NCBI RefSeq assembly: GCF_000019965.1
Contig: NC_010571.1
Coordinates: 2,985,001 to 3,049,000, forward strand
Direction: 5' to 3'
Source: Opitutus terrae PB90-1
GTDB taxonomy: Bacteria; Verrucomicrobiota; Verrucomicrobiia; Opitutales; Opitutaceae
DNA length: 64,000 nt
Under the pieces are notes generated by a model. The model did no database searches and was not told the origin of the DNA. It was given only the letters and a program-made list of their open reading frames with translations. Below are positions 10,224 to 36,539 of the stretch, piece by piece (position 1 is the first letter of the stretch; the number at the start of each line of letters is the position of its first letter). Both the position numbers and the translations under genes were made by a program.

Positions 10224-12668
10224 TCACCCCTTGGTTGCCAGCCGCTGCCGCAGCTCTGGTGGCAACAACGCGTGCGCCAGCTCCCGCAACTGTGGATCGC
10301 CGATCTCCACCTTGAAAAACTTGCACAGCGCGAGCAGCCGGAACAGCGCGCCGGTGCTGAGCGTGCGGAGCTCGGTCGCGTTTGCCTCGGCGAGGCAGCG
10401 GTCCAGTTGTGCTCGGGCGGGATCGAAGTGTTTCGCCTGCGCCAACACGATAGCGAGGTTGACGCGCCGCTCCCACGGAAGCCGGCGATCGCCGCCGCGC
10501 TCCAGCGCACGCGCGATCGCCTCGAGCGTGCGCTCGAAACCCGCCGTGTCGTTGCGCACGCGCTCCACCTGCGCGCGCGCCACCAGCGCCCCGAGGTTGG
10601 CGGGGTACCGTAGCAGTTTTTCCCGCACGCCGGCGGCAAGTTCGAGCTGCTCCGTTTCGACGAAATATTCCGCCAGCCGGCTGCTGGCGAGGGGCTCCTG
10701 CTGCTGCTGCACTTCGAAAACGCGCACCGCTTCACTTTCATAACCGGCGATGGGCGGTAGCGAATAAGGTACCGGCCGCAGCCACGGCGGCAGCGCCCAG
10801 CGGCGGAGCGACGCCACCAGCGATTTCTCGTGCAGCGGCGATCCCGGCGCCGCGTTCAGTCCGAGCGTGACGTAGCTGTCGAGGGAGGCATCCCACGTGG
10901 GCGCGACGAGATAGCGCACGGCCCGTCGCTCGAGGAGCAGCAGCGCTTCGTCCATCGAGGTCGCGCTCGCGATGCGCGCTGCGGCGAGAAAACCCTCGCG
11001 GTTTTCCCAACGCAGTGTGCCGATGCCGCGCAACCCGCCGTGAAAGATCAACGCGGTCGTTAGTTCCGGTGACGCGAGCGCGATCGCGCCACTACGGTCT
11101 GACCGCAGCGCCAACCAGTGCGCCAGATCGCGATGAATCACTGCGCGCACCTCGGTGGACGTGAGCTCGGCCGCTCCGCGCGCTTGTCGGTCGGGGAGCG
11201 AGTGCAGCAGACCCGGCCATAGCACGACGGCGAGCACGCCGCCGCCCAGCAGCCGGGCCGCGACGCTCCGGACCGCCACGCTGCCGGCCAGCACGGCCAG
11301 CAGCAGAATCAGAAAGCTGTCCAGCGTCATCCACGCCCGCAGCTGGATCGAGCTGACGGCGAGCGTGACGAGTGCGCCACCGACGAGAACCGCGACGCCA
11401 CGAGTCCATCCGTCGGCACGCAATCGGCGCCATGTCACTGCGAGTCCGGCCAGGATCGCGGCCGCCGGCAGCAACGTCGCCAGTGCGGCGCGGCTCAGCC
11501 CGTCCCGACGCAACCAGTCCGCCAGGCCCGGCGCCGCGATTCCGTCGCCGAGCCCGGTCAGCTGCGACGCAAGCGGGTCGGTGTTCCAGAACCCGCTTTC
11601 ACGGCTGGCGAATACCGCGCAGGCCACGACAAAGGTGATCGCGCCCGTTGCGGCCACGGTCTTGCGTGCCATGCTCCAAGTTTTGATTACTCCGAGTCGG
11701 CTGACGCCTGCCAGGGTTGCGAGCAGCTCTCCGGCGCCGAGCCAGGCCAGCCCGTAAAGCGGATGAATGACTTCCAATCGCGCCGGATCCATCTCCGACG
11801 GGAAATATTCGACGAGAAAAGCCGCCAGGATCATCGCCGCGCCGCCGGCGGACCAGGCGCGCCAGGGCGGCGGCGGCGCGGAACTGCGACGCTCGAGCAG
11901 CGCGGCGATCACTCCGCCCGCGGCCACTCCGCCCACGAACGCTACCCCGATCAAGGGTCGGATCCACACGCTGCACGCGCCCGCCACACCGGCGGCGAAC
12001 CACCAGCGGCTGGCGTGGTCCGACGAGACTCCCGGTCGCACCGCGGGCAAAAGAAGCAACAGGCTCCAGAGGCCGCACGCTTCGGCCAGACCCACCGAAT
12101 TTGGCGCGCCCGCCAAAAATCCCGTGGCGAAAGGAAACATCGCCGCGATCCCTGCGGCCGTTGCGGCGCCGGCGAAGCCACCCAGCTGTCGTCCGACAAA
12201 CAGGCTCACCGTGATCAGCAGCAGCAGTTGCAGGAGTGGATCCGCGACCAGCGCGGCCCGTTCGACCGAAACCCCGAGCGGCTTGCCGGAAAACCAGTGA
12301 TCCATCGTCGCGATCAGGGCGAGCCACCACCGATAGGGTGACGCCGCGTGCACTTCGCAGCCGAAAGGCGCGTTGTCGGTGTCCACGCGATGCAGCCGCC
12401 AGGAATGGGACGCGAGCATCTGCTGGGTTTGCGCGATCCAGTCGTAGCTCGGTTGATTCGGCCCCGGAACGATGTGCCGGCGGGTGCCTCCGGCGTAGCC
12501 GGTCGGGGACGACGCGTCCTCCGCCGGGATGTCCACCGACCAGTCGGGCTGCGCGGAAACGTGCTGGACCCGCTCGATCCTCACCGCATTGAGCCAGAGC
12601 AGAAAACCCACCGCGCACACCGGCACGATCGTCCAGAGCAAGGAGATGGGGCGGAAGCGCAGACTCAT
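10224..12668 (-). CDS. Polytopic membrane protein, GT-C-glycosyltransferase-like, with C-terminal helical repeats
   Basis: This protein of about 814 residues starts at MSLRFRP (12668). It has one N-terminal transmembrane helix, an extracytoplasmic loop of about 100 residues, and roughly ten more hydrophobic helices up to about residue 480. The loop's end, CEVHAASPYRWWLALI, resembles the first loop of GT-C glycosyltransferases such as oligosaccharyltransferase subunits, where a short acidic motif binds metal. The last 160 residues look like TPR-type helical repeats (AEYFVETEQLELAAGVREK, and others). GT-C enzymes use polyprenol-linked sugars outside the membrane. I cannot prove that activity here; it may be a divergent family with unknown function. 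It is divergently oriented to the first FG-GAP gene. Confidence 0.55.
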   Translation of the reverse strand: MSLRFRPISLLWTIVPVCAVGFLLWLNAVRIERVQHVSAQPDWSVDIPAEDASSPTGYAGGTRRHIVPGPNQPSYDWIAQTQQMLASHSWRLHRVDTDNAPFGCEVHAASPYRWWLALIATMDHWFSGKPLGVSVERAALVADPLLQLLLLITVSLFVGRQLGGFAGAATAAGIAAMFPFATGFLAGAPNSVGLAEACGLWSLLLLLPAVRPGVSSDHASRWWFAAGVAGACSVWIRPLIGVAFVGGVAAGGVIAALLERRSSAPPPPWRAWSAGGAAMILAAFLVEYFPSEMDPARLEVIHPLYGLAWLGAGELLATLAGVSRLGVIKTWSMARKTVAATGAITFVVACAVFASRESGFWNTDPLASQLTGLGDGIAAPGLADWLRRDGLSRAALATLLPAAAILAGLAVTWRRLRADGWTRGVAVLVGGALVTLAVSSIQLRAWMTLDSFLILLLAVLAGSVAVRSVAARLLGGGVLAVVLWPGLLHSLPDRQARGAAELTSTEVRAVIHRDLAHWLALRSDRSGAIALASPELTTALIFHGGLRGIGTLRWENREGFLAAARIASATSMDEALLLLERRAVRYLVAPTWDASLDSYVTLGLNAAPGSPLHEKSLVASLRRWALPPWLRPVPYSLPPIAGYESEAVRVFEVQQQQEPLASSRLAEYFVETEQLELAAGVREKLLRYPANLGALVARAQVERVRNDTAGFERTLEAIARALERGGDRRLPWERRVNLAIVLAQAKHFDPARAQLDRCLAEANATELRTLSTGALFRLLALCKFFKVEIGDPQLRELAHALLPPELRQRLATKG

Positions 12669-12769
12669 TCGAGCGGGTGGGAGCGTCTTCGGAGCAACGA
12701 TCATCCGGCCGCGCGAAACGGTGGCAAGCCTCGAGGCGGTCCGGACGCGTGGCGGGACGCTCTGGAAAC

Positions 12770-12861
12770 GTGGCACGGGCGTCCTGCCCGTGGACGGCGC
12801 TCCGCGCCGCCAACATGGGCGAGAGGGCTATGCCACTTCACGGGCAAGATGCCCGTGCCAC
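12770..12861. repeat. Palindromic repeat, GTGGCACGGGC family, in a divergent promoter gap
   Basis: The 92-bp element is bounded by perfect 11-bp inverted repeats, GTGGCACGGGC and GCCCGTGCCAC. It contains GGCGCTCCGCGCC in its centre. It fills much of the 260-bp gap between the divergent genes starting at 12668 and 12929. Close relatives are at 21393-21482 and 44336-44402. Confidence 0.88.
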
Positions 12862-12928: not shown

Positions 12929-15900
12929 ATGTTGCCGGCCGAGAACCCTTTGATACGACACGCGGGTCCGTGGGCCGCGGCGATGCTTGCGTTCATGCTG
13001 ACGGGCAACGTCGGGTGGGCCGCGGACGGTTCCGCCGCCGGTCAGGGCTGGGAGGCAAAACCTCTGGCGCCGCGTTCCGGTCCGCGCGGAGCGACGATGT
13101 TCGTCATGCTGCCGCCAGCGGAGACCGGCCTCGTCGCGGAGAATCACTACGACGATCCGCGGATGTGGGGCGAGCGGTATCACGAGTTTGGCGTCGGCGC
13201 GATCGGCACTGGCGTGGCGATCGGCGACTACGACGGGGACGGTCGCCCCGACGTGTTCGTGGTGGCGAAGACCGACAGCTGCCGGCTGTTTCGCAATCTC
13301 GGCGCCTGGAAGTTTGAAGACGTCACCGACCGCGCCGGGGTGGCCGATCGGGGCGATGCGGCGCGGGTGTGGAAGCAGGGCGCGGCCTTTGCCGACGTGA
13401 ACAACGACGGCCGGCTCGACCTGTATGTCTGCCGGTTCGCCGAGCCGAACCTCCTCTACATCAACCAGGGCGACGGCACGTTTCGCGAGGAGGCGGCGGC
13501 GCGCGGACTGGCGGTGGTCGACGCGTCGAGCGCGGCGGCGTTCTGCGACTACGACCGCGACGGCTGGCTCGATGTGTTTGTGCAGACGAACCTGCTCGAC
13601 TCCGCCGCGCATCCGAACGGCCAGCGCGACTACTTGTTTCACAACAACGGTGACGGGACATTTCGCAATGTGACGGAGCACGCGGGGATCAGCGGCGAGA
13701 CGCAGGGGCATTCGGCGACCTGGTGGGACTACGATCAGGACGGCTGGCCGGATCTCTACGTGGCGAATGATTTCTCGATTCCGGACTCACTCTACCGGAA
13801 CCGTCGCGACGGTACTTTCGTGAACGTGCTCGACGAAGTCGTGCCGCACACGCCGTTTTCTTCGATGGGCGGGGATCTCGGCGACGTGAACAACGACGGG
13901 CTGATCGATTTGCTGGTCGCTGACATGGCGGCGACGACGCACCAAAAGGACCAGCGCGGCATGGCGCCGTCGCGGGTTCACGCCCGCGAGGTCACGAGTG
14001 ATTCGACCGTCGCGCCGCAATACGAACGCAGCGCGCTGTATCTCAACACCGGCACGGGCCGCTGTCTCGAAGCGGCGTTTCTCGCGGGCGTCGCGGCGAC
14101 GGATTGGACGTGGTCGCCGCGGTTCGAGGACCTGGACAACGATGGCCGGCTCGACCTGCACGTCACCAACGGCATGAACCGCGAGCAGAACAACGAGGAT
14201 CTCTTGCGGCGTTTGATGGCGGCGGAAACACCGGCCGAGCGGATCCGGATCATGCGTGCGAGCCCGATGCTGGTGGAATCGAACCTCGCGTTCCGCAATC
14301 GGGGCGAGCTGCGGTTCGACAACGTCAGCGCTGAGTGGGGACTGGATCACAAGGGCGTGAGTTTTGGATCCGCGTTCGGCGATCTCGATGGCGACGGCGA
14401 TCTCGATCTGGTCTACGCGAACTACCAGGCCGGCGTGAGCGTGCTGCGCAACGACAGCGATCGCGGCAACCGGTTGATCGTCGAGCTGCGGGGCACGCGC
14501 TCGAACCGCTTCGGCATCGGCAGCCTGGTCCGGGTGGAGACTGCCTCCGGCGTGCAGGTGCGCTCGCTGGTGCTGTTGCGCGGCTACGACTCGACCAGCG
14601 AGCCGGTGGCGCACTTCGGGCTCGGCGACGACGACGTGGTGCGAACGCTCACGGTCGATTGGCCGAGTGGTGAACGGCAGACGTTCACGAATGTGCCGGT
14701 GAACCGGCGGATCACGCTCACCGAACCGGAAGGCTCTTCGGATATGACGCAGCTCGCATCGGCGAAGCGGGTGGTCGCAGCCCCACAGTTCTCCGACGTG
14801 AGCGACCAGGCCGGATTCACGTTCACCTCACGCCCGGGCGAGATCGACGGCACCGATCAGCAGCCGCTGCTTACGCTGCGGCAGAATGGTCGAGGTCCTG
14901 CGCTCGCCTTGGGCGATCTCAACGGTGACGGCATCGACGACGCGGTGATCGGCGGCACGGCGCGCGATCCGGCGCGGATTGTCCCAGGCACGCGTTCCGG
15001 CCGATTCGCGGCGGACCCGGCGGAGCTGCCCACCGCCGCGTCGCTCGATCACGGGCCGGTGCTCATCTTCGATGCCGACGGGGACGGCGCGAACGACTTG
15101 CTCCTCACGGCCGCCGGCGTGGCGCAGCCGGAAGGTGCGCCCGAATACCAGCCGATCCTCCTGCTCAACGGTGGTGGCGGCGCGATGCGGGCGGCGTCGG
15201 CGGATGCGCTGCCGTCGCTCCCGCTCTGCGTCGGCGCTGCCGCCGCCGCCGATTTCGATCGTGACGGCCGGCTGGACGTGTTTCTCGGCGGGCGCGTCGT
15301 GCCGGGCCTTTATCCGCTGCCGGCGCGCACCGCGCTACTCGCCCATCGCGGTCCCGCGCCCGCGGGATTCGTGGATGTGACCGACACCGTCGCACCCGGC
15401 CTGCGCGAGATCGGGCTCGTGACCTCGTGCCTGTGGACCGACGTCGACAACGACGGCTGGCTCGATCTCTTGGTCGCGCTGGAGTGGGGCGGCATCCATT
15501 ATTGGCGCAACGTCGACGGCCGCCGCTTCGAGGACCAGTCGGCAGCTGCGGGTTTCGCCGCCGCCGGCAGCGGCTGGTGGAGTTCGCTCGCGGCGGCCGA
15601 TTTCAACGGCGACGGTCGGATGGATTACGTCGCGGGAAATCTCGGACTCAACACGCCGTATCGCGCGAGCGCCGATGCGCCGGCGGCCCTTTTCCTCGGC
15701 GACTTCGCGGGCGACGGCGAGTCGCGGATCATCGAGGGCGAATATGAAGGCGGCCAGCTGTTCCCGCGACGCACGCGGCGCGAACTGGCCGCGATCATGC
15801 CGGAGATTCTGAAACGCTTCCCGCGAAACGATCTCTACGCGCGGGCAACGCTGGTGGAGATCGTGGGCGAAGAGCGGCTCGCGGCGGCGCGGCGTTTCGA

Positions 15901-16561
15901 GGCGACCGAGTTTCGCAGCGGCGTGCTTCTGAGTCGGCCGGATGGCACCTACGAATTCTCGCCGTTGCCGCGGCTCGCGCAGATCGCGCCACTGCAGGGC
16001 GTCATTGCGGGCGACTTCGACGGCGATGGCTTTGCGGATATCTATGCGGTCCAGAATTCCCACGCGCCGGTGCCATTCGTCGGCCGGTTCGACGGTGGAC
16101 TGAGTCAGCTCTTGCGCGGCGATGGGCGAGGTCATTTTACCGCGGTTCCGATTCGGGAGAGCGGGCTCGTGGTGCGGGGCGATGCCAAGGCGCTCGCGCT
16201 CACCGATCTCGATGCGGATGGCTGGCCGGATTATCTCATCACCCGCAACGGCGCCGGCACGATCGCGTTTCGGAATGCCGGCGTGGCGGGCCGGCGCTCG
16301 CTCTGCGTGAAGCTGCGCGGGCCGCGGGGCAACCCGACTCCCATCGGTGCACGCGTGACGCTCGAGCTGGCGGATGGCACGCAGCAGACGGCGGAGGTGA
16401 CGGCGGGCGGTGGTTACGCGAGCCAGTCGAGCGCCGGGTGTTTCTTTGGCTATTCCGCGGCGAACCCATCGTCTGTGCTGCGGGTGCGCTGGCCGTCGGG
16501 GCGGGTATCGGAGCATCGCGACCTCGGCTCCGGTCCGGTGGTGACGGTTGCGGCTCCATAA
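12929..16561 (+). CDS. FG-GAP/VCBS repeat protein with two ASPIC/UnbV domains (CRTAC1-like)
   Basis: This exported protein of 1210 residues has a signal peptide near residues 10-33 (hydrophobic stretch ending in VGWAADG). Two rows of FG-GAP/VCBS repeats follow, seen as many DxDxDGxxD calcium-binding loops (DYDGDGRPD, DVNNDGRLD, DLDGDGDLD), as in seven-bladed integrin-like propellers. An ASPIC/UnbV domain lies at about 512-602 (GLGDDDVVRTLTVDWPSGE) and a second one at the C terminus (about 1121-1204, VRWPSGRVSE). Function is unknown; such proteins bind calcium and probably ligands at the cell surface. The gene at 23364-26708 is a paralogue with the same N-terminal plan but no second ASPIC domain. 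It is followed by two genes on the same strand. Confidence 0.85.
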   Translation: MLPAENPLIRHAGPWAAAMLAFMLTGNVGWAADGSAAGQGWEAKPLAPRSGPRGATMFVMLPPAETGLVAENHYDDPRMWGERYHEFGVGAIGTGVAIGDYDGDGRPDVFVVAKTDSCRLFRNLGAWKFEDVTDRAGVADRGDAARVWKQGAAFADVNNDGRLDLYVCRFAEPNLLYINQGDGTFREEAAARGLAVVDASSAAAFCDYDRDGWLDVFVQTNLLDSAAHPNGQRDYLFHNNGDGTFRNVTEHAGISGETQGHSATWWDYDQDGWPDLYVANDFSIPDSLYRNRRDGTFVNVLDEVVPHTPFSSMGGDLGDVNNDGLIDLLVADMAATTHQKDQRGMAPSRVHAREVTSDSTVAPQYERSALYLNTGTGRCLEAAFLAGVAATDWTWSPRFEDLDNDGRLDLHVTNGMNREQNNEDLLRRLMAAETPAERIRIMRASPMLVESNLAFRNRGELRFDNVSAEWGLDHKGVSFGSAFGDLDGDGDLDLVYANYQAGVSVLRNDSDRGNRLIVELRGTRSNRFGIGSLVRVETASGVQVRSLVLLRGYDSTSEPVAHFGLGDDDVVRTLTVDWPSGERQTFTNVPVNRRITLTEPEGSSDMTQLASAKRVVAAPQFSDVSDQAGFTFTSRPGEIDGTDQQPLLTLRQNGRGPALALGDLNGDGIDDAVIGGTARDPARIVPGTRSGRFAADPAELPTAASLDHGPVLIFDADGDGANDLLLTAAGVAQPEGAPEYQPILLLNGGGGAMRAASADALPSLPLCVGAAAAADFDRDGRLDVFLGGRVVPGLYPLPARTALLAHRGPAPAGFVDVTDTVAPGLREIGLVTSCLWTDVDNDGWLDLLVALEWGGIHYWRNVDGRRFEDQSAAAGFAAAGSGWWSSLAAADFNGDGRMDYVAGNLGLNTPYRASADAPAALFLGDFAGDGESRIIEGEYEGGQLFPRRTRRELAAIMPEILKRFPRNDLYARATLVEIVGEERLAAARRFEATEFRSGVLLSRPDGTYEFSPLPRLAQIAPLQGVIAGDFDGDGFADIYAVQNSHAPVPFVGRFDGGLSQLLRGDGRGHFTAVPIRESGLVVRGDAKALALTDLDADGWPDYLITRNGAGTIAFRNAGVAGRRSLCVKLRGPRGNPTPIGARVTLELADGTQQTAEVTAGGGYASQSSAGCFFGYSAANPSSVLRVRWPSGRVSEHRDLGSGPVVTVAAP

Positions 16562-16666: not shown

Positions 16667-17980
16667 ATGAGTTCTTCCGCCCACCCCGGATCGCTCACCC
16701 GCCGACGGGTTTGTCGCGTGCTCATGTTGACCCTGCTTGCGACCGCGTTTTTCAGCGCGGGCTGCGACCGTCGGCCTGATGCACCCCGAACGCGGATCGC
16801 CCGCGCCGCCTATGTCGAGGACCTCGACCGCTACACGCCGGTGCCGATCGGGAATAGCTTCGACGGCAAGCCGTGGCTGTCCCACGTCGCGATCGTGGAC
16901 CTCGATCAGGATGGCCGGCAGGACGTGCTCGCCTGTGACGACAAGCTGCTGTCCGTCGTGTGGGTGCGGCAGACGGCGCCCGGAGTCTTCGAGGAGTCGA
17001 CCGTCGCGGCCGCGGTGCCGGGGGCGGTGCACGTCGAGGCGATCGACATGGATGGCGACAAGGATCTGGACCTGCTGATCGCGTGCATGGGCGAGGTGTT
17101 TCCCAACAACGACAAGATCGGCTCCGTGGTGCTGATGGAGAACGACGGCCACCAGCAGTTCACCAAGCACGTGCTGGTCGAGAATATCGCGCGCGTGACC
17201 GATGTGCGCGCCGGCGACTTCAACCGCGACGGCCGGCTGGATCTCGCTGTCGGGCAGTTCGGCTACGACCAGGGCGAGATCCGCTGGATGGAGAACATGG
17301 GCAACTGGCAATTCAAGAGCCGGATCCTGCTCAGCCTCTCCGGCACGATTCACGTCTGTGTCGATGACTTCAATGGCGACGGCACGCAGGATATCGCGGC
17401 GCTGGTCTCGCAGCAGTGGGAGGAAATCTACCTGTTCGAGAACGACGGCCGCGGAAATTTCACGAACAAGATCATCTTTGGTTCCACCAACGAGGATTAC
17501 GGCAGCAGCGGCATGAGCCTGTGCGACCTGAACCGCGACGGCCGACCGGATCTGCTCTACACCAACGGCGACGGATTCGCCTACGCCGACCCGGGCGAGC
17601 GGCCGTGGCATGGTGTGCAGTGGCTCGAGAATCGCGGCAGCGGTTTCTTCAAGTTTCACCGGATCGCCAACATGGCCGGCGCCTACAGCCCGGTCGGCGT
17701 CGATCTCGACCGCGATGGCGACATGGACATCGTGTGCACCAGCGGCTTCAACGATTGGACGAAACCGAAAGCCGTGTCGGTCGTGGCGTTCATCAACGAC
17801 GGTCGGATGAACTTCACGCCGCACGTGCTCGCGTACCAGCCGATCCAGCTGATCGCGTGCGATGCCAAGGATATGGACGGCTCAGGCGCGCCCTCGATCG
17901 TGACGGTCGGGTTTTACTCGTATCCTCCCTTCGACAACATGAGCCGGATCACGCTATGGCGGCCGAAGCAAAAACCGTGA
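16667..17980 (+). CDS. FG-GAP/VCBS repeat lipoprotein
   Basis: The protein of about 437 residues starts best at the ATG at 16667, giving a lipoprotein signal peptide with lipobox FSAGC and the lipidated cysteine at residue 33. The mature part is a single propeller of about seven VCBS/FG-GAP repeats with calcium loops such as DLDQDGRQD, DMDGDKDLD, DFNRDGRLD and DLNRDGRPD. No ASPIC domain is present. It should sit on the outer or inner membrane facing the periplasm or outside. An upstream ATG at 16571 would add 32 residues and spoil the signal peptide. The gene overlaps the following TPR gene by 25 bp, suggesting coupled translation. Confidence 0.82.
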   Translation: MSSSAHPGSLTRRRVCRVLMLTLLATAFFSAGCDRRPDAPRTRIARAAYVEDLDRYTPVPIGNSFDGKPWLSHVAIVDLDQDGRQDVLACDDKLLSVVWVRQTAPGVFEESTVAAAVPGAVHVEAIDMDGDKDLDLLIACMGEVFPNNDKIGSVVLMENDGHQQFTKHVLVENIARVTDVRAGDFNRDGRLDLAVGQFGYDQGEIRWMENMGNWQFKSRILLSLSGTIHVCVDDFNGDGTQDIAALVSQQWEEIYLFENDGRGNFTNKIIFGSTNEDYGSSGMSLCDLNRDGRPDLLYTNGDGFAYADPGERPWHGVQWLENRGSGFFKFHRIANMAGAYSPVGVDLDRDGDMDIVCTSGFNDWTKPKAVSVVAFINDGRMNFTPHVLAYQPIQLIACDAKDMDGSGAPSIVTVGFYSYPPFDNMSRITLWRPKQKP

Positions 17981-21335: not shown

Positions 21336-21392
21336 GCAGCGGGGATCGATATCACCGGACGGGTGATCTGCAAGGCCAGGCCGTGGGTGAGC

Positions 21393-21482
21393 GTGGCACG
21401 GGCGTTCCGGCCCGGGACGGCACGCCGCGGGCGATGCGTGGCGCAGGATCTGCAACTGACACGGGCGAGACGCCCGTGTCAC
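21393..21482. repeat. Palindromic repeat, GTGGCACGGGC family
   Basis: Bounded by GTGGCACGGGC and GCCCGTGTCAC (10 of 11 positions inverted). It has the same termini as the elements at 12770 and 44336 but a different centre. It lies in the 341-bp gap 21336-21676, whose remainder is the next entry. Confidence 0.82.
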
Positions 21483-21489
21483 GATAGCC

Positions 21490-21621
21490 GGGAAATTTCA
21501 TGAACAGGAGTGAAGCTCAGTCCGAAATTTCCCTCCGCCTGCGGCGGAGCGGCCTTGTCGCGGCTACCCCCGACAGAGTCAGCCCGGAGGGCGGATATTT
21601 CATGAATTTCATGAAATATCC
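21490..21621. repeat. Compound palindromic element with three perfect hairpins
   Basis: Three perfect inverted repeats stand in a row: GGGAAATTTC/GAAATTTCCC (21490-21499 and 21524-21533), CTCCGCC/GGCGGAG (21533-21549), and GGATATTTCATGAA/TTCATGAAATATCC around a single central base (21593-21621). The AT-rich stems contrast with the GC-rich surroundings. No coding sequence is present. Confidence 0.75.
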
Positions 21622-23122: not shown

Positions 23123-23217
23123 ATGGTGTGTGGGTCGAAAGTGGAGGGGGAGCGGGTCTTGTGCCGCAGGCTGCGCGCATCGCGGCGATGACACAGCCGA
23201 TGCGCCTCGCGGCAGAT

Positions 23218-26708: not shown

Positions 26709-26846
26709 GACGGTGAGGGGAAGGGGACGGTAGGGTGGTGTGCTCGCGGGGGCGAGAGGGGATTGCGAACGGACCAAGCGGGGGCTTCGGTCGGAGATCA
26801 TGCCGACGATGGGGGGGCGTCGGATGGCGGGGGCGTGAAGAAGCGA

Positions 26847-26870
26847 GAGCCCGATGAGAACATCGGGCTC
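26847..26870. repeat. Short palindrome, AGCCCGATG family
   Basis: GAGCCCGATG, AGAA loop, CATCGGGCTC: a perfect 10-bp stem just after the haloperoxidase stop codon (minus strand). No T-run follows. Same stem as at 10053-10077. Confidence 0.75.
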
Positions 26871-26881
26871 CACTTTTCAGT

Positions 26882-28162: not shown

Positions 28163-28360
28163 GGGGGGGGGGTGGTGTGTGGTTTGCCGGCGGGAAGCCG
28201 GCAGCTAAATCGCCGCGGAGGATGCGGCTCAGTATCGAGGTGGAAATCTTATTGGGGTGAGTAGCTGAGTTTCTGGGGTGAAATGCGCCGGCACCGCGGC
28301 AACGGATGAGCGGGAGCGGCGGGCCGGGGCAGGAGTCGGAACGGGATGAGCTGACGCGAC

Positions 28361-28423: not shown

Positions 28424-29176
28424 TCAGGGGCTGGCCGCCGCGATAATGTCCAACAGCTCGATCTCGAAGATGAGCGGGGCGCCGGCCGGCACCCCGGCGG
28501 GCCACTCGGCGGTGCCGAACGAAAGCGCGGGCGGAAGCACGACGAAGATTTTCCCGCCGAGCGCCAGCATTTGAACCGCCTCAGCAAGTCCCGGCAGCAA
28601 CGCGGCGACCTCCACGCGCGTGCCCTGGCCCGAGAGGGCCGGCAAGGCAGTGGTGCCATCCGGACCTTTGGCCGCGATGTTGATCACAACGGTGTCCACG
28701 GCGCGCGGTCGTGGCCCGGCGCCAGCCTGATCCATTCGGTAGAGAACACCGCTCGCACTTTCCTGCAGGGTGAGCTCGTGTTTGAGCGAGCGCAGATAGC
28801 TCGCCAGCGGATCCGCGGCGGGTGCTGGACGCGGTGCACCGGAAGCTGCGACGTGGTGACCGATTTCGTCGAGCAACTCGCGGGCGCGTTCGTCCAGCGG
28901 CAACGCGCGACCGGCGTAGGCGGCGCGGAAACCGTCAAGGAAGGCCTCGAACTGAGCCTCGCTCCAGTGCAGCGCGGGAATGTTCAGGTTCGTGGCGACG
29001 GCGGACCCGACGGCGCCATAGGCACGCAGTGCGGGATCGGCGGTTGCGGTGGAGGGCTCGACTGGCTCGGTGGCCAGGGCCGAAGCGGCGCAACCGACGA
29101 GCAGGAGCAGCGCACGATGACGCCGGCGACAACCGGCGCACGTCGGAGCAGAGACGGCAATAGCTTCTGGTGACAT
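28424..29176 (-). CDS. FKBP-type peptidyl-prolyl isomerase-like protein, degenerate active site
   Basis: The 250-residue protein has a hydrophobic N-terminal segment (ALLLLVGCAASALA) with a possible lipobox cysteine (LVGC). A helical FKBP-N-like region (about 45-135) follows, and then an FKBP domain to the end (GVLYRMDQAGAGPRPRAVD ... LIFEIELLDII). Typical FKBPs have aromatic pocket residues in Y-x-G, F-D-S and PGW. Here these positions read NIAAKG, ALPAL and LLPGLAEAV, so prolyl isomerase activity is doubtful. It may be a chaperone or binding domain. It starts 8 bp after the FG-GAP/ASPIC gene at 29185-31596 and is almost surely cotranscribed with it. Confidence 0.75.
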   Translation of the reverse strand: MSPEAIAVSAPTCAGCRRRHRALLLLVGCAASALATEPVEPSTATADPALRAYGAVGSAVATNLNIPALHWSEAQFEAFLDGFRAAYAGRALPLDERARELLDEIGHHVAASGAPRPAPAADPLASYLRSLKHELTLQESASGVLYRMDQAGAGPRPRAVDTVVINIAAKGPDGTTALPALSGQGTRVEVAALLPGLAEAVQMLALGGKIFVVLPPALSFGTAEWPAGVPAGAPLIFEIELLDIIAAASP

Positions 29177-29184: not shown

Positions 29185-31596
29185 TCAGCGGCTGGTCGCG
29201 AAATGCGGTGTGGGCACCGGCGGTGCCGACGCATGCTGGTGCGACGGATGATCCGGGCTCGGATCCGTGGGGAGGCGGAACGAGCGGACCTCGACCGCAA
29301 TCGCGGCAGCGGCGTCTTCGCGAACGAGGTAGGATCGGTCGAGCGCGAGATTTTCCAGCCGCTGGATTTGGCCAGTCGCAGGCCAGAAGATCTCGACGCG
29401 CAGAATACGGGACGCGTCGCCGAGCCCGATGTGCTGCTGCAGCGGCGACGCGCCGAAGCTGCCGCCACTGCCGACCGCGCGGTGGATCTCGCGTTCGCCG
29501 GCCGGAGTCGCGACGACGACCTTGATCCGCGTGCCGAGGGCGAGCCGGTTCGAGCGCACGCCCTCGAGCGTGAGCGTGAGCCAGTGTCCTCCGAGTCCCG
29601 GGTTGGCGAAGAGCTGATTGCGGTAGTTGTCGGCGTTCACCGCGCCGCCGACGACGGAATAGATGTCCTCGTCGCCGTCATTGTCGATGTCGCCAAAGGC
29701 GATGCCGTGCCCCTTCTGCAGCTGACCGAAACCGCCGCTGGCCGTCACATCCTGAAAACCGCGGCCACCGTCGTTGCGAAACATCCGGTTGGGCAGCAGC
29801 GTGGCGAAATCCGGATCGCCGGTGCCGACGTAGAAATCGAGCCAGCCGTCGTTGTCGAGATCACCGAAGTTGCAGCCCATCGTGTGGAGCACCTGATGGA
29901 GTCCCTGTTCGCGCGTGACGTCGGCGAACGTGCCGTCGCGGCGGTTGCGATAGAGGCGCGCGTATTCGCCGGGGTGAGGCAGTCCTAGATAATCCGCTGC
30001 GATGTCGCCGACGTCCTGAATCGCGTAGCCGGTGACCATGAGGTCGAGCCAGCCGTCGTTGTCGTAGTCCCAGAACCAGCAGGAGAAGCTCCCGTACGGC
30101 TCGGTCACGCCGGCTTCGCGCGCCATGTCGGTGAACCGCCAGGTGCCGCGCGGGCAGGCGGCATCGGCGGGACCGTCGTTGCGCAGGAGCAGATTCGCGC
30201 CATCGCGGCGCGAAAGATAAAGGTCCGGCCGGCCGTCGTTGTTGTAGTCGCCGGTAACGACGCCTTTCACGTAACCGACCGCAGCGACGCCGTTGGCGGC
30301 GGCGCACTCCGTGAACGTGCCGTCGCCGTTGCTGCGAAAGAGTTCGCACGGATGCACGTCGTCCGGCGCGGACTCGTTGCCGATGAATAGGTCGAGGTGG
30401 CCGTCGCCGTCGAAGTCGAACCAGGCGGCGGTTTGGGTGGGGTGAAAGCTCAGCAGCCCGGCCTCTGCGGTGACGTCGGTGAACGTGCCGTTGCCGTTGT
30501 TCCGCAGGAGCGAGTTGGGGTAGTGGCCGAGCTGCCGGAGCCAGGCTCCGCGCAGAACAAGCACGTCGACGAAACCGTCGTTGTTGTAGTCGGCCTGGAT
30601 GAGATTGAGCCCACCTGTCTCTCCCGTGAGGCCGGCGGCGGCCGTGCGCTCGGTGAACGTGCCGTTGCCGTTGTTCCGAAACGTGCGGAGCTGGCTGTAC
30701 GGACCCCAGGCCGAAACCATCAAATCGAGAAAGCCGTCGCGGTCGAAGTCGTCCATGATCACGCCACCGGCGAGATCGTCGACGTCGATTCCGAGCCGAC
30801 CGGCGACGTCGGGAAACCGCGGCAGGTCGCGCGCAGAGGCGAAGTGCTGCGGGTCGATCCGCCATTGGGCGGGGACGCCGTCGGGATATTCGCCGAGCGT
30901 CATGTGGGCGATATTGAGCAGCCAGCGGGCGCGCAGGTCGCCGGGGTAACGCGTCAGCAGCGTGGTCAGCGCGTCCACCGCGCCGCGCGAGCCGCGGGTC
31001 AGCGGATGCACGCCGCCGCCGCGAATCGGAAAGAGGCACGAGTCGGCGTTGTGGTTCAAGAGGCAGTTCTCCTGTTCACCGAGGCGAAGATAAGCGAGCG
31101 CGCGGATCGTGTGCAGCGTGGTGAACTGCACGGGCGTCATGGTGTGGCCCTCGGCGGTCAGCAGTTGTTCGAGCGTCGCGAGCGCGGCCAGCGCGGGCTC
31201 GGGTTCCCCGGCGCGCAGGAGATCGTGCGCGTAGGTCGGCAGGAACTTGATGCGCTCAGCGGAATCCGAGGTGCGCTCGATGATCTGCCGGAGCGCTTCG
31301 GCGCGACGGGGATATTCGTATGGGCTCTCGGGTGAAATCGACGCTTCCGCGATTTCGCGCAGGCGAGCCGCCATGCGTTGGGTGCTGGCCGGCTGCTCAG
31401 TCAGATCCGCCGGCGCGGAAGTCAGCGTGGACGACGGTGCGCAGAACTCCGGGTTCGCCGGTGGCGCGGCCAGCGCGGTCGTGAGGCTGGAGCACAAGAG
31501 CGCGCAGACGAGCGCAGGCGCCGACGCGTGCGCGCGCCAGCGGCGGCCGGACGAATCGGCCGCGCGGGGGTGGGGGAAAGGGAACACTGCGCGCAA
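29185..31596 (-). CDS. FG-GAP/ASPIC protein with N-terminal helical region (CRTAC1-like)
   Basis: The 803-residue exported protein has a signal peptide around residues 22-44 (ALVCALLCSSLTTALA). A helical TPR-like region (about 70-240, YAHDLLRAGEPEPALAALAT) precedes an FG-GAP propeller with calcium loops DFDRDGFLD, DYNNDGFVD, DFDGDGHLD, DYDNDGWLD and DLDNDGWLD. An ASPIC/UnbV domain follows at about 668-762 (HIGLGDASRILRVEIFWPA). The C-terminal tail is proline/histidine-rich (DPSPDHPSHQHASAPP) and could bind metal, which is inference. The domain order differs from the two larger paralogues. It is the first gene of a minus-strand run with the FKBP gene and perhaps the haloperoxidase gene. Confidence 0.84.
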   Translation of the reverse strand: MRAVFPFPHPRAADSSGRRWRAHASAPALVCALLCSSLTTALAAPPANPEFCAPSSTLTSAPADLTEQPASTQRMAARLREIAEASISPESPYEYPRRAEALRQIIERTSDSAERIKFLPTYAHDLLRAGEPEPALAALATLEQLLTAEGHTMTPVQFTTLHTIRALAYLRLGEQENCLLNHNADSCLFPIRGGGVHPLTRGSRGAVDALTTLLTRYPGDLRARWLLNIAHMTLGEYPDGVPAQWRIDPQHFASARDLPRFPDVAGRLGIDVDDLAGGVIMDDFDRDGFLDLMVSAWGPYSQLRTFRNNGNGTFTERTAAAGLTGETGGLNLIQADYNNDGFVDVLVLRGAWLRQLGHYPNSLLRNNGNGTFTDVTAEAGLLSFHPTQTAAWFDFDGDGHLDLFIGNESAPDDVHPCELFRSNGDGTFTECAAANGVAAVGYVKGVVTGDYNNDGRPDLYLSRRDGANLLLRNDGPADAACPRGTWRFTDMAREAGVTEPYGSFSCWFWDYDNDGWLDLMVTGYAIQDVGDIAADYLGLPHPGEYARLYRNRRDGTFADVTREQGLHQVLHTMGCNFGDLDNDGWLDFYVGTGDPDFATLLPNRMFRNDGGRGFQDVTASGGFGQLQKGHGIAFGDIDNDGDEDIYSVVGGAVNADNYRNQLFANPGLGGHWLTLTLEGVRSNRLALGTRIKVVVATPAGEREIHRAVGSGGSFGASPLQQHIGLGDASRILRVEIFWPATGQIQRLENLALDRSYLVREDAAAAIAVEVRSFRLPTDPSPDHPSHQHASAPPVPTPHFATSR

Positions 31597-31693: not shown

Positions 31694-32461
31694 TCACCGC
31701 GCTTCGGTCAGAGCTCTTTCGAGCTCGTTGCGACGGTATCGGCTGAGGGGGAGTCGGGTGCCGTTCAGCAAGACCACCACGTATTCGCCGTAGTTCGCCG
31801 ACTCGAGTTCCTTGATTTGATCGGAGCGGACCACCGCCGAGCGACTGATCCGGGCGAAGTTCGCAGCGCCCAGCCGTTGTTCGACTGAGCCGAGGGATTC
31901 GCGCAGCATGAGCCGCGGCGCATCCGTGAGGTGGAGCACGCAGTAGTTGTTGGCGGCCTCGATCCAGACGACCTCCCGGGGCTTGACGAAAACAATCCGG
32001 CCGTCGACGCGCACCGCGATCCGTTCGGGCACCCGCGGCTGGACCTGGGCCAGGATGCTCTCCAGCCGCGTTTCCACCTCGCGCGCTTGGCGCGATTGGA
32101 GCAGCTCGAGCGCGCGCTCGACCGCTTGGTGCAGTCGTTCCTCGTCGAAGGGTTTGAGCAGATAGTCGACCGCGCGGGCGGCGAACGCTTCGACGGCGAA
32201 GCGCTCATGCGCGGTCACGAAGATGATCGCCGGGCGCGCGGTGGCCGGCAGCTGATTTGCCACGTCGAGTCCGCTGCAGCCCGGCATCTGCACATCGAGA
32301 AAAACGATATCCGGCCGTTCGCGTTCAATGGTGGCCAGCGCGTCCGGTCCGTCGCCACATTCGCCGGCCAGTTCCACAGTGTTCTGACGCTGGAGCAGCC
32401 GCTGCAGGCGCTCGCGCGCGAGCGGCTCGTCATCGACGATCAATGCACGTGGCTTGGTCAT
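31694..32461 (-). CDS. LytTR-family response regulator (copy 1)
   Basis: The 255-residue cytoplasmic regulator starts at MTKPRALIVDDEP (32461). It has a receiver domain (phospho-acceptor D56 in DIVFLDVQMPG, conserved K in YLLKPFD) and a C-terminal LytTR DNA-binding domain (about 145-255, VVWIEAANNYCVLHL, FARISRSAVV). LytTR proteins bind DNA through beta-strands, usually at spaced direct repeats. It is a close paralogue of the next gene: both have MTK-RALIVDDEPLARER-type starts and equal length. It is the last gene of a kinase-regulator-regulator group and probably responds to the LytS-type kinase at 33558-34646. A GGAAG sequence about 12 bases upstream is one of the few Shine-Dalgarno-like motifs in the window. 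Confidence 0.92.
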   Translation of the reverse strand: MTKPRALIVDDEPLARERLQRLLQRQNTVELAGECGDGPDALATIERERPDIVFLDVQMPGCSGLDVANQLPATARPAIIFVTAHERFAVEAFAARAVDYLLKPFDEERLHQAVERALELLQSRQAREVETRLESILAQVQPRVPERIAVRVDGRIVFVKPREVVWIEAANNYCVLHLTDAPRLMLRESLGSVEQRLGAANFARISRSAVVRSDQIKELESANYGEYVVVLLNGTRLPLSRYRRNELERALTEAR

Positions 32462-32638
32462 GGAATTTCTTCCGCGGGGGCGGGAAATGTGCCGCCACGC
32501 TGCCGCGCCGCGCGCACAAGGAAACGATTCTGGGGCGAAGCGCCGATGCGGGATGGTCAGCGGCCAATCGCCGCCGGGGAGATCACGCAAACTGGCGGGG
32601 AGGCCGGTCGCACCGCCGCGCGTGTCGGCCGGCGCGCG

Positions 32639-33406
32639 CTACTCGGCCGTGAACCGCTCGAGCTGACCGCGATAGCTGCGGCTCAGCGGCAGCCGGGTGC
32701 CATCGCGGAGCACGACGGTGTAGTCGCCGTGGAACGTGGGCTGCAGTTCCTTCACCTGCTCGACGCGGACGATGGCGGAGCGGTTCACGCGCACGAAATC
32801 CGTCGAGCCGAGCCGCTCTTCCAGCGAAGACAACGTGTCGCGCAGCATCAAGCGCGGCGCGTCCGCGAGGTGCAGCAGCACGTAATTGTCGGCGGCCTCG
32901 ACCCAGACGATGTCCTCGGGCTTGAGGAAGACGACGCGGCCATCGGATTTGAACGCGAGCCGGCCGGGCTTCTTCGGCGCGGGCGAGGCGTCGGCGAGCA
33001 GCGACTCGAGCTTCGTATTCAGATCACCAGCGCGGCGGGCGCGGATCTGGTCGGCGGCGCGCTTGTAGGCGAGCAGCAGCCGCTCCTGATCGAAAGGTTT
33101 GAGCAGGTAATCGGTCGCGTGGACGCTAAATGCCTCGACCGCAAAACGGTCGTGCGCCGTGACGAACACGATCGCGGGCCGGTCGTCGGCGGGTAACTCG
33201 CCGACCACTTTCAGCCCATCGCAACCGGGCATCTGCATGTCGAGGAACACCACATCCGGCCGCTGCTGCTTGATGGCCGCGACGGCGTCGGGGCCGTTGC
33301 CACATTCCGCGATGATCTCCGCAGTCGGCTCGCCGGCGAGGAGCGCGCGCACGCGTTCCCGCGCGAGAGGTTCGTCGTCGACGATCAGAACACGGAGTTT
33401 GGTCAT
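32639..33406 (-). CDS. LytTR-family response regulator (copy 2)
   Basis: The 255-residue paralogue of the previous regulator has a receiver domain with D56 (DVVFLDMQMPG) and a LytTR domain (about 145-255, DIVWVEAADNYVLLHL, FVRVNRSAIV). The two copies have the same length and the same phospho-acceptor position, and differ mostly in the linker (about 120-145). It lies directly downstream of the kinase gene, so it is the more likely primary partner. Two regulators served by one kinase suggests either branched output or a recent duplication on the way to divergence. No target site could be identified by eye. Confidence 0.92.
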   Translation of the reverse strand: MTKLRVLIVDDEPLARERVRALLAGEPTAEIIAECGNGPDAVAAIKQQRPDVVFLDMQMPGCDGLKVVGELPADDRPAIVFVTAHDRFAVEAFSVHATDYLLKPFDQERLLLAYKRAADQIRARRAGDLNTKLESLLADASPAPKKPGRLAFKSDGRVVFLKPEDIVWVEAADNYVLLHLADAPRLMLRDTLSSLEERLGSTDFVRVNRSAIVRVEQVKELQPTFHGDYTVVLRDGTRLPLSRSYRGQLERFTAE

Positions 33407-33557: not shown

Positions 33558-34646
33558 CTACGTCGCGAATGGAAACGAGAGCCGGACGCAAAGTCCACCC
33601 TCCGGTTGGTTAGTCAGCTCGAACTGTTGATCATCGCCGTACAGCTCGGCCAGCCGGGCGCGGCTGTTGGCCAGACCGATGCCTTCGCGCTTGAAGCCGC
33701 CTGCGGGCATTCCGCCGCCGTTGTCGGAGACGCTGAGCACGAGGTTGTCGCCGACGACGGCTGAGCGGAGCACGATCCGGCCGGTGCGCATCTGCGGTTC
33801 GATGCCGTGGCGGATCGCGTTCTCGACCAGCGGCTGGAGGATCAGGCTGGGCACCTGGGCATCCAGCGTGGCCGGATCGATCTCGAACTGCACCGTGAGT
33901 CGGTCGCGAAAACGAATCCGCTCGATTTCGAGGTAGCGTTCGAGAAACGCGATCTCCTGCCGCAGCGGTGTGAGCGGCGCGCCCGTCTGCGACATGGTTT
34001 GCCGCAGCAACTCGGAAAGCCGGACCAGCATGCGTTCGGCGGCAGCGACATCCGAATACATCAACGACGCGATGCCATTGAGCGCGTTGAACAGGAAGTG
34101 GGGCTTGAGCTGGCGGAGCAGCGACTGCAGCCGGGCCTCCGTGAGATGTTTCTCCAACTCCAGGGCCTGGACCGTGCGCTCGTGATATTTGCGATAATAG
34201 TCGAGCGCGTGCGTGACGGACACGATCACGCCGTAGATCAGAAGATTGAACGGATAGGTTTTCGCGAGGAGCGGAACGAAGATCTCGGCGAAGGTCGCTT
34301 CCTCATCGATCAACCAGCTGTGGGCTTGGCCGACGAGCGCGCGCAGCACGACGTAGATCAGCGCGAAGCCGAGGGCGGCGGCGAGATGAATACCGGCGGT
34401 CCGCCATGGTCGGTGCGGCTCGGCGGAGACGCGACGCGTGAGCCGGGCGATCGGCAGCGACAGCACCGCCCAAACGTACCAATCGGCGAGCGAATAACTG
34501 ATCGCCTGCGTCCACGTGATCGATCGTCCGATCAGGCTGCTGGAGAGATAAAATTGTCCGGCGAAGGCGAAGCCGATCAGCGACCACAACACCAGGAAGC
34601 CGAGCGCGCCGAGCAGGCGCCGAAGCGGGGAGGGCGAGCGAAGCAT
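33558..34646 (-). CDS. LytS-type sensor histidine kinase
   Basis: The 362-residue membrane kinase has about four transmembrane helices in the first 150 residues (LGALGFLVLWSLIGFAFAG, LAAALGFALIYVVLRALVG, LLIYGVIVSVTHALDY). A coiled linker follows, then the His_kinase domain with H183 in LKPHFLFNALNG, then a HATPase domain with the N-box PLVENAIRHG and G-box SDNGGGMP. This matches the LytS/YehU class that pairs with LytTR regulators, two of which lie immediately downstream. The short helices with little extracytoplasmic sequence suggest it senses a membrane signal or a transporter partner, not a soluble ligand. Both sides of the gene carry CAGAGTC-type short repeats. Confidence 0.92.
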   Translation of the reverse strand: MLRSPSPLRRLLGALGFLVLWSLIGFAFAGQFYLSSSLIGRSITWTQAISYSLADWYVWAVLSLPIARLTRRVSAEPHRPWRTAGIHLAAALGFALIYVVLRALVGQAHSWLIDEEATFAEIFVPLLAKTYPFNLLIYGVIVSVTHALDYYRKYHERTVQALELEKHLTEARLQSLLRQLKPHFLFNALNGIASLMYSDVAAAERMLVRLSELLRQTMSQTGAPLTPLRQEIAFLERYLEIERIRFRDRLTVQFEIDPATLDAQVPSLILQPLVENAIRHGIEPQMRTGRIVLRSAVVGDNLVLSVSDNGGGMPAGGFKREGIGLANSRARLAELYGDDQQFELTNQPEGGLCVRLSFPFAT

Positions 34647-34654
34647 GGGGCGAA

Positions 34655-34687
34655 GAGCTGAGAGTCTAGAGCGGAGAGTCTAGAGTG
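34655..34687. repeat. Short AGAGTCTAGAG repeats before the LytS kinase gene
   Basis: GAGCTGAGAGTCTAGAG and GGAGAGTCTAGAG are near-identical tandem units just upstream of the kinase start (minus strand). They match the units at 33428-33544. They could be regulatory or part of a mobile repeat. Confidence 0.55.
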
Positions 34688-34781
34688 GTCTGACAGTCGA
34701 CTGCACGGTTGCGGATTTACATCAGGGCGGTTGCGCTGGTTCAATCCTGTCGCACTGGATTCGGCAACGACTTCCTTCCCC

Positions 34782-36539
34782 ATGCCTGGCGTCCAACCTG
34801 CCCCAACTTCGCCCCGCCCGAGCGCCGTGGCGGCAGGATCGTTGCCGCCGACCGGCGATGTGGTGCCGCCGCTCGTGCCTGTACTGGTGCCGATCGTGCT
34901 CGCGGCGATCGTCACGGGTATTTTGTTCGCGTGGTGGTTTCCGCCGGCGCCGCCGGGCGAGCTGGCGCCCGCGCCGCGGTTCACGGACGTTTCGGTCGAG
35001 GCGGGGTTGGCGTCGTTGCCGGTCGCGGCGGCGAGTGAGGATGCGCCGACAACGCTGGGCGGCGGGGTGGTGTGCTTCGACTACGATGGCGACGGGCACG
35101 AGGATCTGTTTCTGGTGCACGGGACGACGTGGCCATGGGAGGAGTCGTTCGCGCGGCAGATCACGCGCGGCAGTTGCGTGCTGCTGCGCAACGACGGCAA
35201 GGGCCGGTTCACCGACACGACCGCGCTCGCCGGACTGAATGTCGAACTGCAGGGCATGAGCGCCGCGGCGGGCGATTTCGACAACGACGGCCGGCCGGAT
35301 CTCTACGTGACGTGCGTGGGCGCCAATCACCTTTTCCGCAATCGCGGTCATGGCCGGTTCGAGGACATCACCGAACTCGCGGGGGTGGGCGGGGAGGAGA
35401 ACACGTGGAGCACCGGCGCGGCGTGGATCGATTTCGATGCGGATGGCCGGCTCGACCTCGTGGTGTGTCATTACGCGCGCTGGCCGCGTGAGCTGGATCT
35501 GCACACGGCGTTCATGGTGTCACAGGTGGGGCATTCCTACGGCGCACCGACGGGTTTTCTGGGCGCGTTTCCAACGGTGTATCGGAATCTCGGCGAGGGC
35601 AGGTTCGCGGTGGTGCCGGGCGGCGCGGGGTTGCGTGATGTGGACCCGGACACGGGCTTCCCGGTGGCGAAGGCGCTCGCGGTTGTGCCAGTCGACGCCA
35701 ACAGCGACGGCCGGCTGGACCTGCTGTTCACGTATCACACCAGCCAGAGTGCACTGTTCGTGAATCAGGAGGGCGGCACGTTTCGACGCTGGACGGCGGC
35801 GGATGAAGGGCGGCAGGAAGGCGTCGCTGCGGGGCTGGTCGCCGCGGGCTCGCTGGCATTGGCGAACGTGTCCAGCCGGGACGAGCGGTTTCGCGTGCTG
35901 CAGGCGGCGCTCGCCGGCAGCGGGGCGGCGGCGGACGACAAAGTCGATCTGGGCACGAAACTGGGCGTGGCGGTGCTGGATTACGATCTCGATGGCCGGC
36001 TGGAGTTTTTCTCCGGCAACGGCCGCGCGGAGCCCGATACGAATCGCTTCGAGGCGACGCGCGATTTCAGTGCGGTGCCGCAGATCTGGTGGAATCGCGG
36101 CGACCGCTGGATTCCTGCGGCGCCGGACGCCACCGGTGAAACCGCCCTGGCGCCCGCAGTCGCGCGGGGCGTAGCCGCGGCGGATTTCGACGGCGATGGC
36201 GATCTCGATGTGGTGGTGGCACAATACGGCGCGGCGCCGCGGCTGTTGCGCAACGACCAGCGCTTCAGTTTGCCGTCGTTGCGGGTCGACCTCGTCGCGA
36301 CCAAAACCGCGCGCGAGGCAGGCGGTGCGCGGGTGGAGGTGCATACGCCACGCCGCGTGATGGTGCAGACGGTGGCTCCGGCCATGAGTTATATGGCACA
36401 GTCGAGCCAGACGCTGACTTTCGGGTTGGGCGACGACGCCCGGGTGCGGAAAATCGTGGTGCACTGGCCCAGCGGCTTGCGTCAGGAAGTGCGGATGAAC
36501 GGCACGGATCGGCGATTGACGATCAAGGAGCCGGAATGA
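34782..36539 (+). CDS. Membrane-anchored FG-GAP/ASPIC protein (CRTAC1-like)
   Basis: The 585-residue protein (ATG at 34782, alternative ATG at 34731) begins with a short proline-rich cytoplasmic tail and one transmembrane helix (PIVLAAIVTGILFAWWF). An FG-GAP propeller with calcium loops DYDGDGHED, DFDNDGRPD, DFDADGRLD and DFDGDGDLD follows. An ASPIC/UnbV domain ends the protein (FGLGDDARVRKIVVHWPSG). It is the shortest of the ASPIC proteins here and is anchored by an uncleaved helix. It is divergent from the LytS/LytTR group (135 bp between starts), so it is a candidate target of those regulators. Function is unknown. Confidence 0.84.
   Translation: MPGVQPAPTSPRPSAVAAGSLPPTGDVVPPLVPVLVPIVLAAIVTGILFAWWFPPAPPGELAPAPRFTDVSVEAGLASLPVAAASEDAPTTLGGGVVCFDYDGDGHEDLFLVHGTTWPWEESFARQITRGSCVLLRNDGKGRFTDTTALAGLNVELQGMSAAAGDFDNDGRPDLYVTCVGANHLFRNRGHGRFEDITELAGVGGEENTWSTGAAWIDFDADGRLDLVVCHYARWPRELDLHTAFMVSQVGHSYGAPTGFLGAFPTVYRNLGEGRFAVVPGGAGLRDVDPDTGFPVAKALAVVPVDANSDGRLDLLFTYHTSQSALFVNQEGGTFRRWTAADEGRQEGVAAGLVAAGSLALANVSSRDERFRVLQAALAGSGAAADDKVDLGTKLGVAVLDYDLDGRLEFFSGNGRAEPDTNRFEATRDFSAVPQIWWNRGDRWIPAAPDATGETALAPAVARGVAAADFDGDGDLDVVVAQYGAAPRLLRNDQRFSLPSLRVDLVATKTAREAGGARVEVHTPRRVMVQTVAPAMSYMAQSSQTLTFGLGDDARVRKIVVHWPSGLRQEVRMNGTDRRLTIKEPE

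Follow-up and report, generated by a model that had tools for sequence, protein, structure and literature searches.

A vanadium-haloperoxidase gene cassette paired with FG-GAP/ASPIC propeller genes in Opitutus terrae PB90-1

We analysed a window of 64,000 nucleotides from Opitutus terrae PB90-1 (G000:C1:2985001-3049000, the source genome, labelled G000, being a single contig of 5,957,605 bases), in which a gene for a vanadium haloperoxidase (VHPO) lies among genes for proteins with FG-GAP repeats and ASPIC/UnbV domains; positions without a prefix are those of the window. Between 6.3 and 36.5 kb the genes are, in order, those for a TonB-dependent receptor (+), the membrane protein GTC (-), ASP_A (+), FG_B (+), a TPR protein (+), a YyaL-like protein (-), an AlgE-type porin (-), ASP_C (-), VHPO (-), an FKBP-like protein (-), ASP_D (-), two LytTR regulators (-), LytS (-) and ASP_E (+), with ribosomal L9 and then DnaB downstream of ASP_E. 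The initial annotation had regarded the stretch 10224-36539 as parts of one assembly. The region is instead made of two modules, each of which recurs independently: module 1, the VHPO cassette, at 19.5-36.5 kb, and module 2 at 6.3-19.4 kb, which extends to the TonB receptor (6273), beyond the range first annotated. A single 26-kb assembly is rejected, because versions of module 2, with varying sets of ASP_A-type, STT3-like, FG_B, TPR and TonB-receptor genes, recur at L175-L179, L184 and L185 of the same genome with no VHPO match (E 1e-10).

The VHPO gene occupies 26882..28162 on the minus strand and adjoins ASP_C (23364..26873, minus strand; PF13517 E 9e-82, PF07593 E 1e-20), an FG-GAP/ASPIC protein whose true start may be an ATG near 26711. 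Two 13-bp direct repeats with starts 21 bp apart are found upstream of VHPO (28253..28286, minus strand). Beyond ASP_C, also on the minus strand, lies the AlgE-type outer-membrane porin (21677..23194; PF13372 E 6e-67). The regulatory genes on the other side encode two LytTR response regulators (31694..32590 and, as LytTR2, 32639..33406, both on the minus strand and both matching PF00072 and PF04397) and a LytS-type sensor kinase (33558..34646, minus strand; PF06580 E 2e-23). Divergent from LytS is ASP_E (34731..36539, plus strand, with 34782 as its likely start; PF13517 E 3e-36, PF07593 E 2e-16), an FG-GAP/ASPIC protein with an N-terminal hydrophobic anchor. Signal peptides, lipoboxes and anchors, including the putative export signal of VHPO, were read from the sequence by eye, with no predictor.

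Pfam bears out the earlier count of five FG-GAP proteins, four of them with ASPIC/UnbV, as well as the porin, the TPR protein, the kinase and the two regulators. FG-GAP repeats exceed the cut-off in all five, and UnbV_ASPIC (PF07593) is found as two domains in the protein at 12929 and as one each in those at 23364, 29185 and 34731/34782, while FG_B has FG-GAP repeats only. Each of the five carries 6-14 D-x-D/N/S-x-D/N/S-G motifs, a pattern compatible with calcium binding. The combination of FG-GAP and ASPIC is shared with CRTAC1 and other ASPIC-UnbV proteins, and ASP_C matches cartilage acidic protein 1 (9etn, E 6e-16); the proteins here differ in being about 1100-1200 amino acids long, often with a second FG-GAP half and some with two ASPIC domains, and in adjoining or being fused to an enzyme.

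The only Pfam family matched by VHPO is PAP2, barely at the cut-off (27.2 bits). Against PDB sequences it gave 18 matches at E up to 1, all of them vanadium halo-, chloro- or bromoperoxidases, haloperoxidases or NapH, with no phosphatase among them; the best were the Zobellia enzyme (4cit, E 4e-34, residues 158-411) and a fungal chloroperoxidase (E 5e-13). The K, R, H, R and H of the vanadate site, whose roles in vanadate binding we assume from known enzymes, are kept in all 25 aligned relatives, and the description of a vanadium haloperoxidase with an intact active site holds on both counts. The G of the SGH motif is present in 20 of these 25 sequences, the window's included, and is replaced to give SAH in four and STH in the second copy of the O. 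terrae genome. That second VHPO (G000:C1:5816885-5818081, L073) is 37% identical and has no ASPIC open reading frame (ORF) in the 38 kb examined. The closest solved relative, the vanadium iodoperoxidase of Zobellia galactanivorans (4cit, 4usz), is likewise an exported-type bacterial enzyme and has been studied on its own as an oxidiser of halides. The literature, as far as its text was available, mentions no ASPIC partner for it; the comparison is between the proteins themselves.

Relatives of VHPO were detected in 27 of the 115 genomes from the window's family and order (E up to 1e-3), in 17 of 288 genomes drawn across the phylum (E up to 1e-10) and in 45 of 197 Bacteroidia genomes (E up to 1e-30), where Bacteroidia stands for what we take to be the class of G115, the genome holding the Mucilaginibacter record L034. 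In that family and order, 14 of 25 VHPO ORFs have a same-strand ASPIC ORF within 300 bp and 4 more have one within 5 kb, leaving 7 with none. The Bacteroidia sample comprises 67 VHPO ORFs in 63 loci, out of 87 VHPO matches, and here a same-strand ASPIC ORF is adjacent in 21, within 5 kb in 8 more and absent in 38; the linked cases make up 29 of the 44 ORFs of up to 475 amino acids and 0 of the 23 longer ones. Gene order is reversed between the two groups, ASPIC being upstream of VHPO in 24 of the 29 linked Bacteroidia cases and ASP_C following VHPO in the window's group. VHPO matches spanning fewer than 280 residues were left out of the counts and the tree, as was L034 (the same record as L092), and L033 was not counted beside G016:C87, which has an equal contig size and the same series of matches.

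The pairing is also visible at the level of whole genomes. ASPIC is carried by 23 of the 27 VHPO-positive relatives against 11 of the 88 VHPO-negative ones (Fisher p 3e-12), and by 43 of 45 VHPO-positive against 53 of 152 VHPO-negative Bacteroidia genomes (p 4e-14), shared ancestry being ignored in both tests. The share of random genes expected to have a same-strand ASPIC ORF within 5 kb is about 0.7% in 23 hand-picked VHPO-positive Bacteroidia genomes and 3.5% in the O. terrae genome, each of its 28 ASPIC domain matches being counted; the observed values, again with shared ancestry ignored, are 29/67 in Bacteroidia and 18/25 in the window's group. In a VHPO tree of 96 rows, linked enzymes fall mainly into two clades, the window's own (18 of 20 linked, support 99) and one of Bacteroidia (28 of 35, support 98), these counts having been taken from the tree by eye. 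One linked row lies outside both clades and unlinked VHPOs stand between them; the linked/unlinked label needs 9 changes on this tree, and gain and loss fit it alike. A check across genomes had been suggested by the initial annotation, and by these comparisons VHPO and ASPIC keep their neighbourhood and co-occur beyond chance. A partnership between the two, as judged from sequence, appears well supported. By title, no description of the pairing was found among the matches listed in the open-licence literature, subscription papers lying outside the search; the parts belong to known families, and their combination is apparently unreported in the open-licence literature searched.

Fusion of the two genes provides a further line of evidence. 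Ten long VHPO-domain loci were fetched, and seven of them (L075-L081) hold a single ORF of 1219-1551 amino acids with FG-GAP, ASPIC and VHPO parts, the other three (L082-L084) being without an ASPIC match. The vanadate-site residues are invariant in all seven fused ORFs. Pfam, run on four of these, found FG-GAP, ASPIC, an Ig domain, DUF6851 and VCPO_2nd; this places the VHPO part in another subfamily, and the coupling is therefore probably a separate one. None of the ten loci is included in the VHPO tree. Equal frame lengths of VHPO and ASPIC matches suggest that there are more fused ORFs in G008, G036, G099 and G101. Taken with the neighbourhood conserved in two phyla, which answers the refuting condition set by the initial annotation, the fused form supports that part of the initial annotation which saw in haloperoxidase and ASPIC genes an undescribed surface system, while the single assembly and FKBP as a core part fall away. 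As a separate observation, L084:6637-10845 is a 1402-residue ORF without ASPIC in which VHPO-profile matches cover residues 3-1308, possibly a doubled enzyme.

LytTR regulators bind paired direct repeats at a spacing of about 21 bp, and the window repeats at 28253-28286 match this layout. In the window's clade, VHPO is preceded by two 13-bp repeats resembling GCRNYTSRCCCCA, with starts 21 bp apart, the 13-base units having been chosen by eye at that spacing. Over 824 kb, a score of 16 or more is reached by 19 repeat pairs at spacing 21, of which 8 are training sites of the matrix; any other spacing between 16 and 29 yields 0-4 pairs, and five Markov controls gave 0-2. In a leave-one-out scan, 13 of the 20 clade loci reach at least 16 within 300 bp of VHPO, at 84-143 bp before its start (the G360 start being an estimate), five of which were never in the matrix; the window pair scores 27.6 and lies 124 bp before the start. 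None of five VHPO genes outside the clade has such a pair upstream, and 16 of 4000 random 300-bp windows, drawn from the same loci with the true sites included, reach score 16. Pairs also occur away from VHPO genes, in the window (16.0 at 9309), in G059, G013 and G029 and elsewhere, and in 2 of 11 regions of the O. terrae genome with ASPIC or STT3-like genes (L180, 22.0; L183, 18.1) against 0 of 9 control regions. The pair in L180 (L180:14309, G000:C1:2936308) and the ASPIC gene there are about 3 kb apart. Eight of the 20 clade loci, the window included, hold orthologues of LytS and LytTR2, and seven of the eight also have ASP_E. The LytTR control that the initial annotation had raised becomes plausible as putative control through the conserved direct-repeat site, and we infer that this LytTR may regulate the cassette.

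Genes for membrane channels accompany some of the pairs. Of the 20 loci of the window's clade, 6 have the AlgE-type porin. Among Bacteroidia loci, Pfam detected SusD upstream of ASPIC and VHPO in L107, L128 and L113, the last of which also has a SusC-like receptor there, and with profiles built for this analysis SusD was found in 10 of 28 linked against 0 of 35 unlinked loci, and SusC in 11 against 0. These loci, and module 2 of the window with its TonB receptor, resemble the SusC/SusD loci of Bacteroidota; in contrast, the porin of module 1 in the window is of AlgE type, ASPIC proteins occupy the position expected of binding proteins, and SusD had no match among the window proteins scanned. 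Two other membrane proteins were seen near VHPO genes. The gene directly after VHPO at L123:10568-11905 (Bacteroidia) encodes HTTM and vitamin K-dependent gamma-carboxylase lumenal domains. A membrane protein of 277 amino acids with no Pfam match (L043:17621-18454) occurs in 7 of the 20 clade loci, in G070a and G360 between VHPO and ASP_C, and may be an additional part of the cassette.

Module 2, the second of the ASPIC modules, includes a TonB receptor and a predicted STT3-like enzyme. The receptor (6273..9881, plus strand; PF07715 Plug E 2e-8) has similar counterparts adjoining ASP_A or GTC copies in L176-L179, L184 and L185. It is followed by GTC (10224..12776, minus strand), by ASP_A with its two ASPIC domains (12929..16561, plus strand; PF13517 E 5e-81, PF07593 E 3e-37 over two stretches), by the propeller FG_B, which has a lipobox-like start (16667..17980, plus strand; PF13517 E 7e-42 on the ORF from 16571), and by the TPR protein (17917..19404, plus strand), which matches many TPR families and has an N-terminal hydrophobic anchor. 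GTC, at first described as a GT-C-like membrane protein, has no match among Pfam, NCBIfam or PDB sequences. That description is made more specific by its predicted structure (mean predicted local distance difference test score, pLDDT, 89.3; predicted template modelling score, pTM, 0.90), which is STT3/AglB-like: the model aligns with AglB 3wak over 584 residues (Z 23.8, root-mean-square deviation 4.2; Foldseek E 3e-12) and also matches eukaryotic STT3, with DPY19, PMT, ArnT and PglB lower. An acidic D/E-x-D/E-N-A motif, likewise shared with AglB/STT3, is present in 13 of 19 GTC-type sequences. GTC differs from these enzymes in having no Pfam match and, in its model, an extra TPR-like part C-terminal to the GT-C/STT3-like fold; the WWDxG acceptor motif is absent from all 19 sequences, and the gene usually stands beside an ASPIC gene, at least 29 of the best 37 copies (E up to 1.2e-75) lying within 3 kb of an ASPIC domain. 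No report of an oligosaccharyltransferase beside ASPIC genes was found in the literature on Verrucomicrobia and Planctomycetes, as far as its text was available. It is a fair guess from the predicted fold that the STT3-like membrane enzyme of module 2 may modify its own, neighbouring ASPIC protein.

The gene families, the conservation of the pair, its reversed order, the fusion and the conserved repeat site were all obtained by computation, and they lead us to propose that 19.5-36.5 kb is an exported vanadium-haloperoxidase cassette, in which a peroxide-dependent oxidase or halogenase is partnered with a propeller, switched by LytTR and linked to a channel; we give this proposal a slightly better than even chance. 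VHPO and the large FG-GAP/ASPIC propeller would be partners outside the inner membrane, both export and a physical complex being inferred, and the propeller would either hold a macromolecular substrate or dock VHPO. The enzyme would use H2O2 to oxidise halide and thereby halogenate or oxidise the bound material, and the substrate or the product would pass through a channel in the outer membrane, of AlgE type here and SusC/SusD in some Bacteroidia. The LytS/LytTR pair, beside the membrane-anchored ASPIC protein, would switch the operon via the two-repeat site upstream of VHPO. Haloperoxidase activity in vivo, the substrate and a role in uptake are the most speculative parts of this scheme.

To our knowledge, the roles of bacterial vanadium haloperoxidases beyond natural-product clusters are largely open, and we know of no function for the ASPIC domain, which is also found in human CRTAC1. 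The recurrence of enzyme and propeller as a pair, the natural fusions and the candidate control site make the role of VHPO and the function of ASPIC testable in one complex. Should VHPO halogenate soil or plant polymers, this would bear on halogen cycling, and if STT3-like enzymes paired with ASPIC genes are active, these surface proteins would have a dedicated modification of their own. More tentatively, ASPIC propellers may be general docking partners of exported modifying enzymes, with one branch in which VHPO, controlled by LytTR, acts on captured polymers by oxidation or halogenation so that they can be taken up by a TonB- or porin-linked route, and another served by its own STT3-like enzyme; together these would form an undescribed class of oxidative surface acquisition in Verrucomicrobiota and Bacteroidota, a generalisation that is possible but that we would sooner doubt than accept.

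Several observations weigh against the proposed cassette. The 7 of 25 and 38 of 67 VHPO ORFs with no ASPIC neighbour within 5 kb imply that the enzyme can do without an ASPIC partner, and an ASPIC match is missing altogether from 4 of the 27 VHPO-positive relatives and 2 of the 45 VHPO-positive Bacteroidia genomes. In PMC12193912 (available in part), O. terrae is entered as obligately anaerobic and as negative for catalase and oxidase, which is a poor fit with an enzyme using H2O2, and no peroxide-forming gene was identified. In 12 of the 20 clade loci there is no LytS/LytTR2 within the stretch fetched, 7 of the 20 are without a repeat pair at score 16, and SusD is found in only a minority of linked loci. 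The structure model of a fusion (mean pLDDT 51.4, pTM 0.41) is too poor for an interface and supports no claim.

Vanadium haloperoxidases and PAP2 phosphatases have site residues in common, and with PAP2 as its only Pfam family VHPO might act in vivo as a phosphatase or phosphotransferase, with phosphate in its site, on phosphorylated material held by the propellers. We regard this as unlikely: PDB sequence matches up to E 1 are to haloperoxidases and to no phosphatase, and although little H2O2 would be expected in an organism described as an obligate anaerobe (PMC12193912, in the part available), six COX1-family matches in the genome, present despite the anaerobe, oxidase-negative listing, suggest contact with oxygen. 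A little less probable still is a defence against peroxide or competitors, in which exported VHPO would turn H2O2 into hypohalous acid and the propellers would merely anchor it at the surface. The known chemistry of the haloperoxidase family and the lipobox- or anchor-like starts of FG_B and ASP_E would suit such a function, and a part in oxidative-stress defence has been proposed for soil haloperoxidases (PMC4926216, available in part), but the SusC/SusD and porin neighbours indicate substrate uptake or export, beyond anchoring. Tight pairing and fusion would equally suit an enzyme and its own target, and VHPO could halogenate or cross-link the propeller and so harden a surface layer, which comes near an alternative given in the initial annotation; a fused target would be unusual for a layer-acting enzyme, and we consider this improbable. 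That VHPO and ASPIC genes have no functional link and are neighbours by chance might be thought of in a genome with 28 ASPIC domain matches and a region holding two separable modules. It is very hard to reconcile with 29/67 and 18/25 observed against about 0.7% and 3.5% expected (shared ancestry ignored), and with two clades of opposite usual gene order plus fusions.

The remaining genes of module 1 are less widely shared. The FKBP-like gene (28424..29176, minus strand; PF00254 FKBP_C E 1e-7) and ASP_D, an FG-GAP/ASPIC protein (29185..31596, minus strand; PF13517 E 2e-50, PF07593 E 2e-12), are each ruled out as core parts, being present in 2 of the 20 clade loci, the window included; the place given to the FKBP-like protein as a core component is lost accordingly. 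An alignment of three sequences shows that its FDSS and GW positions, presumably pocket residues, are lost in the window and in G029 and kept in L087. The YyaL/DsbH-like protein (19500..21482, minus strand; PF03190 Thioredox_DsbH E 3e-42) was correctly described as cysteine-less, CxxC being absent. Nine YyaL-like ORFs are found in the clade loci, and the eight without CxxC lie downstream of ASP_C, or of a porin after ASP_C, while the ninth, with CHWCH, lies on the opposite side in locus G075a. The thioredoxin-like PF03190 is common to these proteins and to YyaL/DsbH (DUF255), from which the eight cassette copies differ by replacement of CxxC, a conserved loss that may point to a chaperone or structural function. 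A near-perfect inverted repeat, GGATATTTCATGAAATTCATGAAATATCC, lies upstream of the YyaL-like gene at 21593-21621 and occurs as a single copy in the window.

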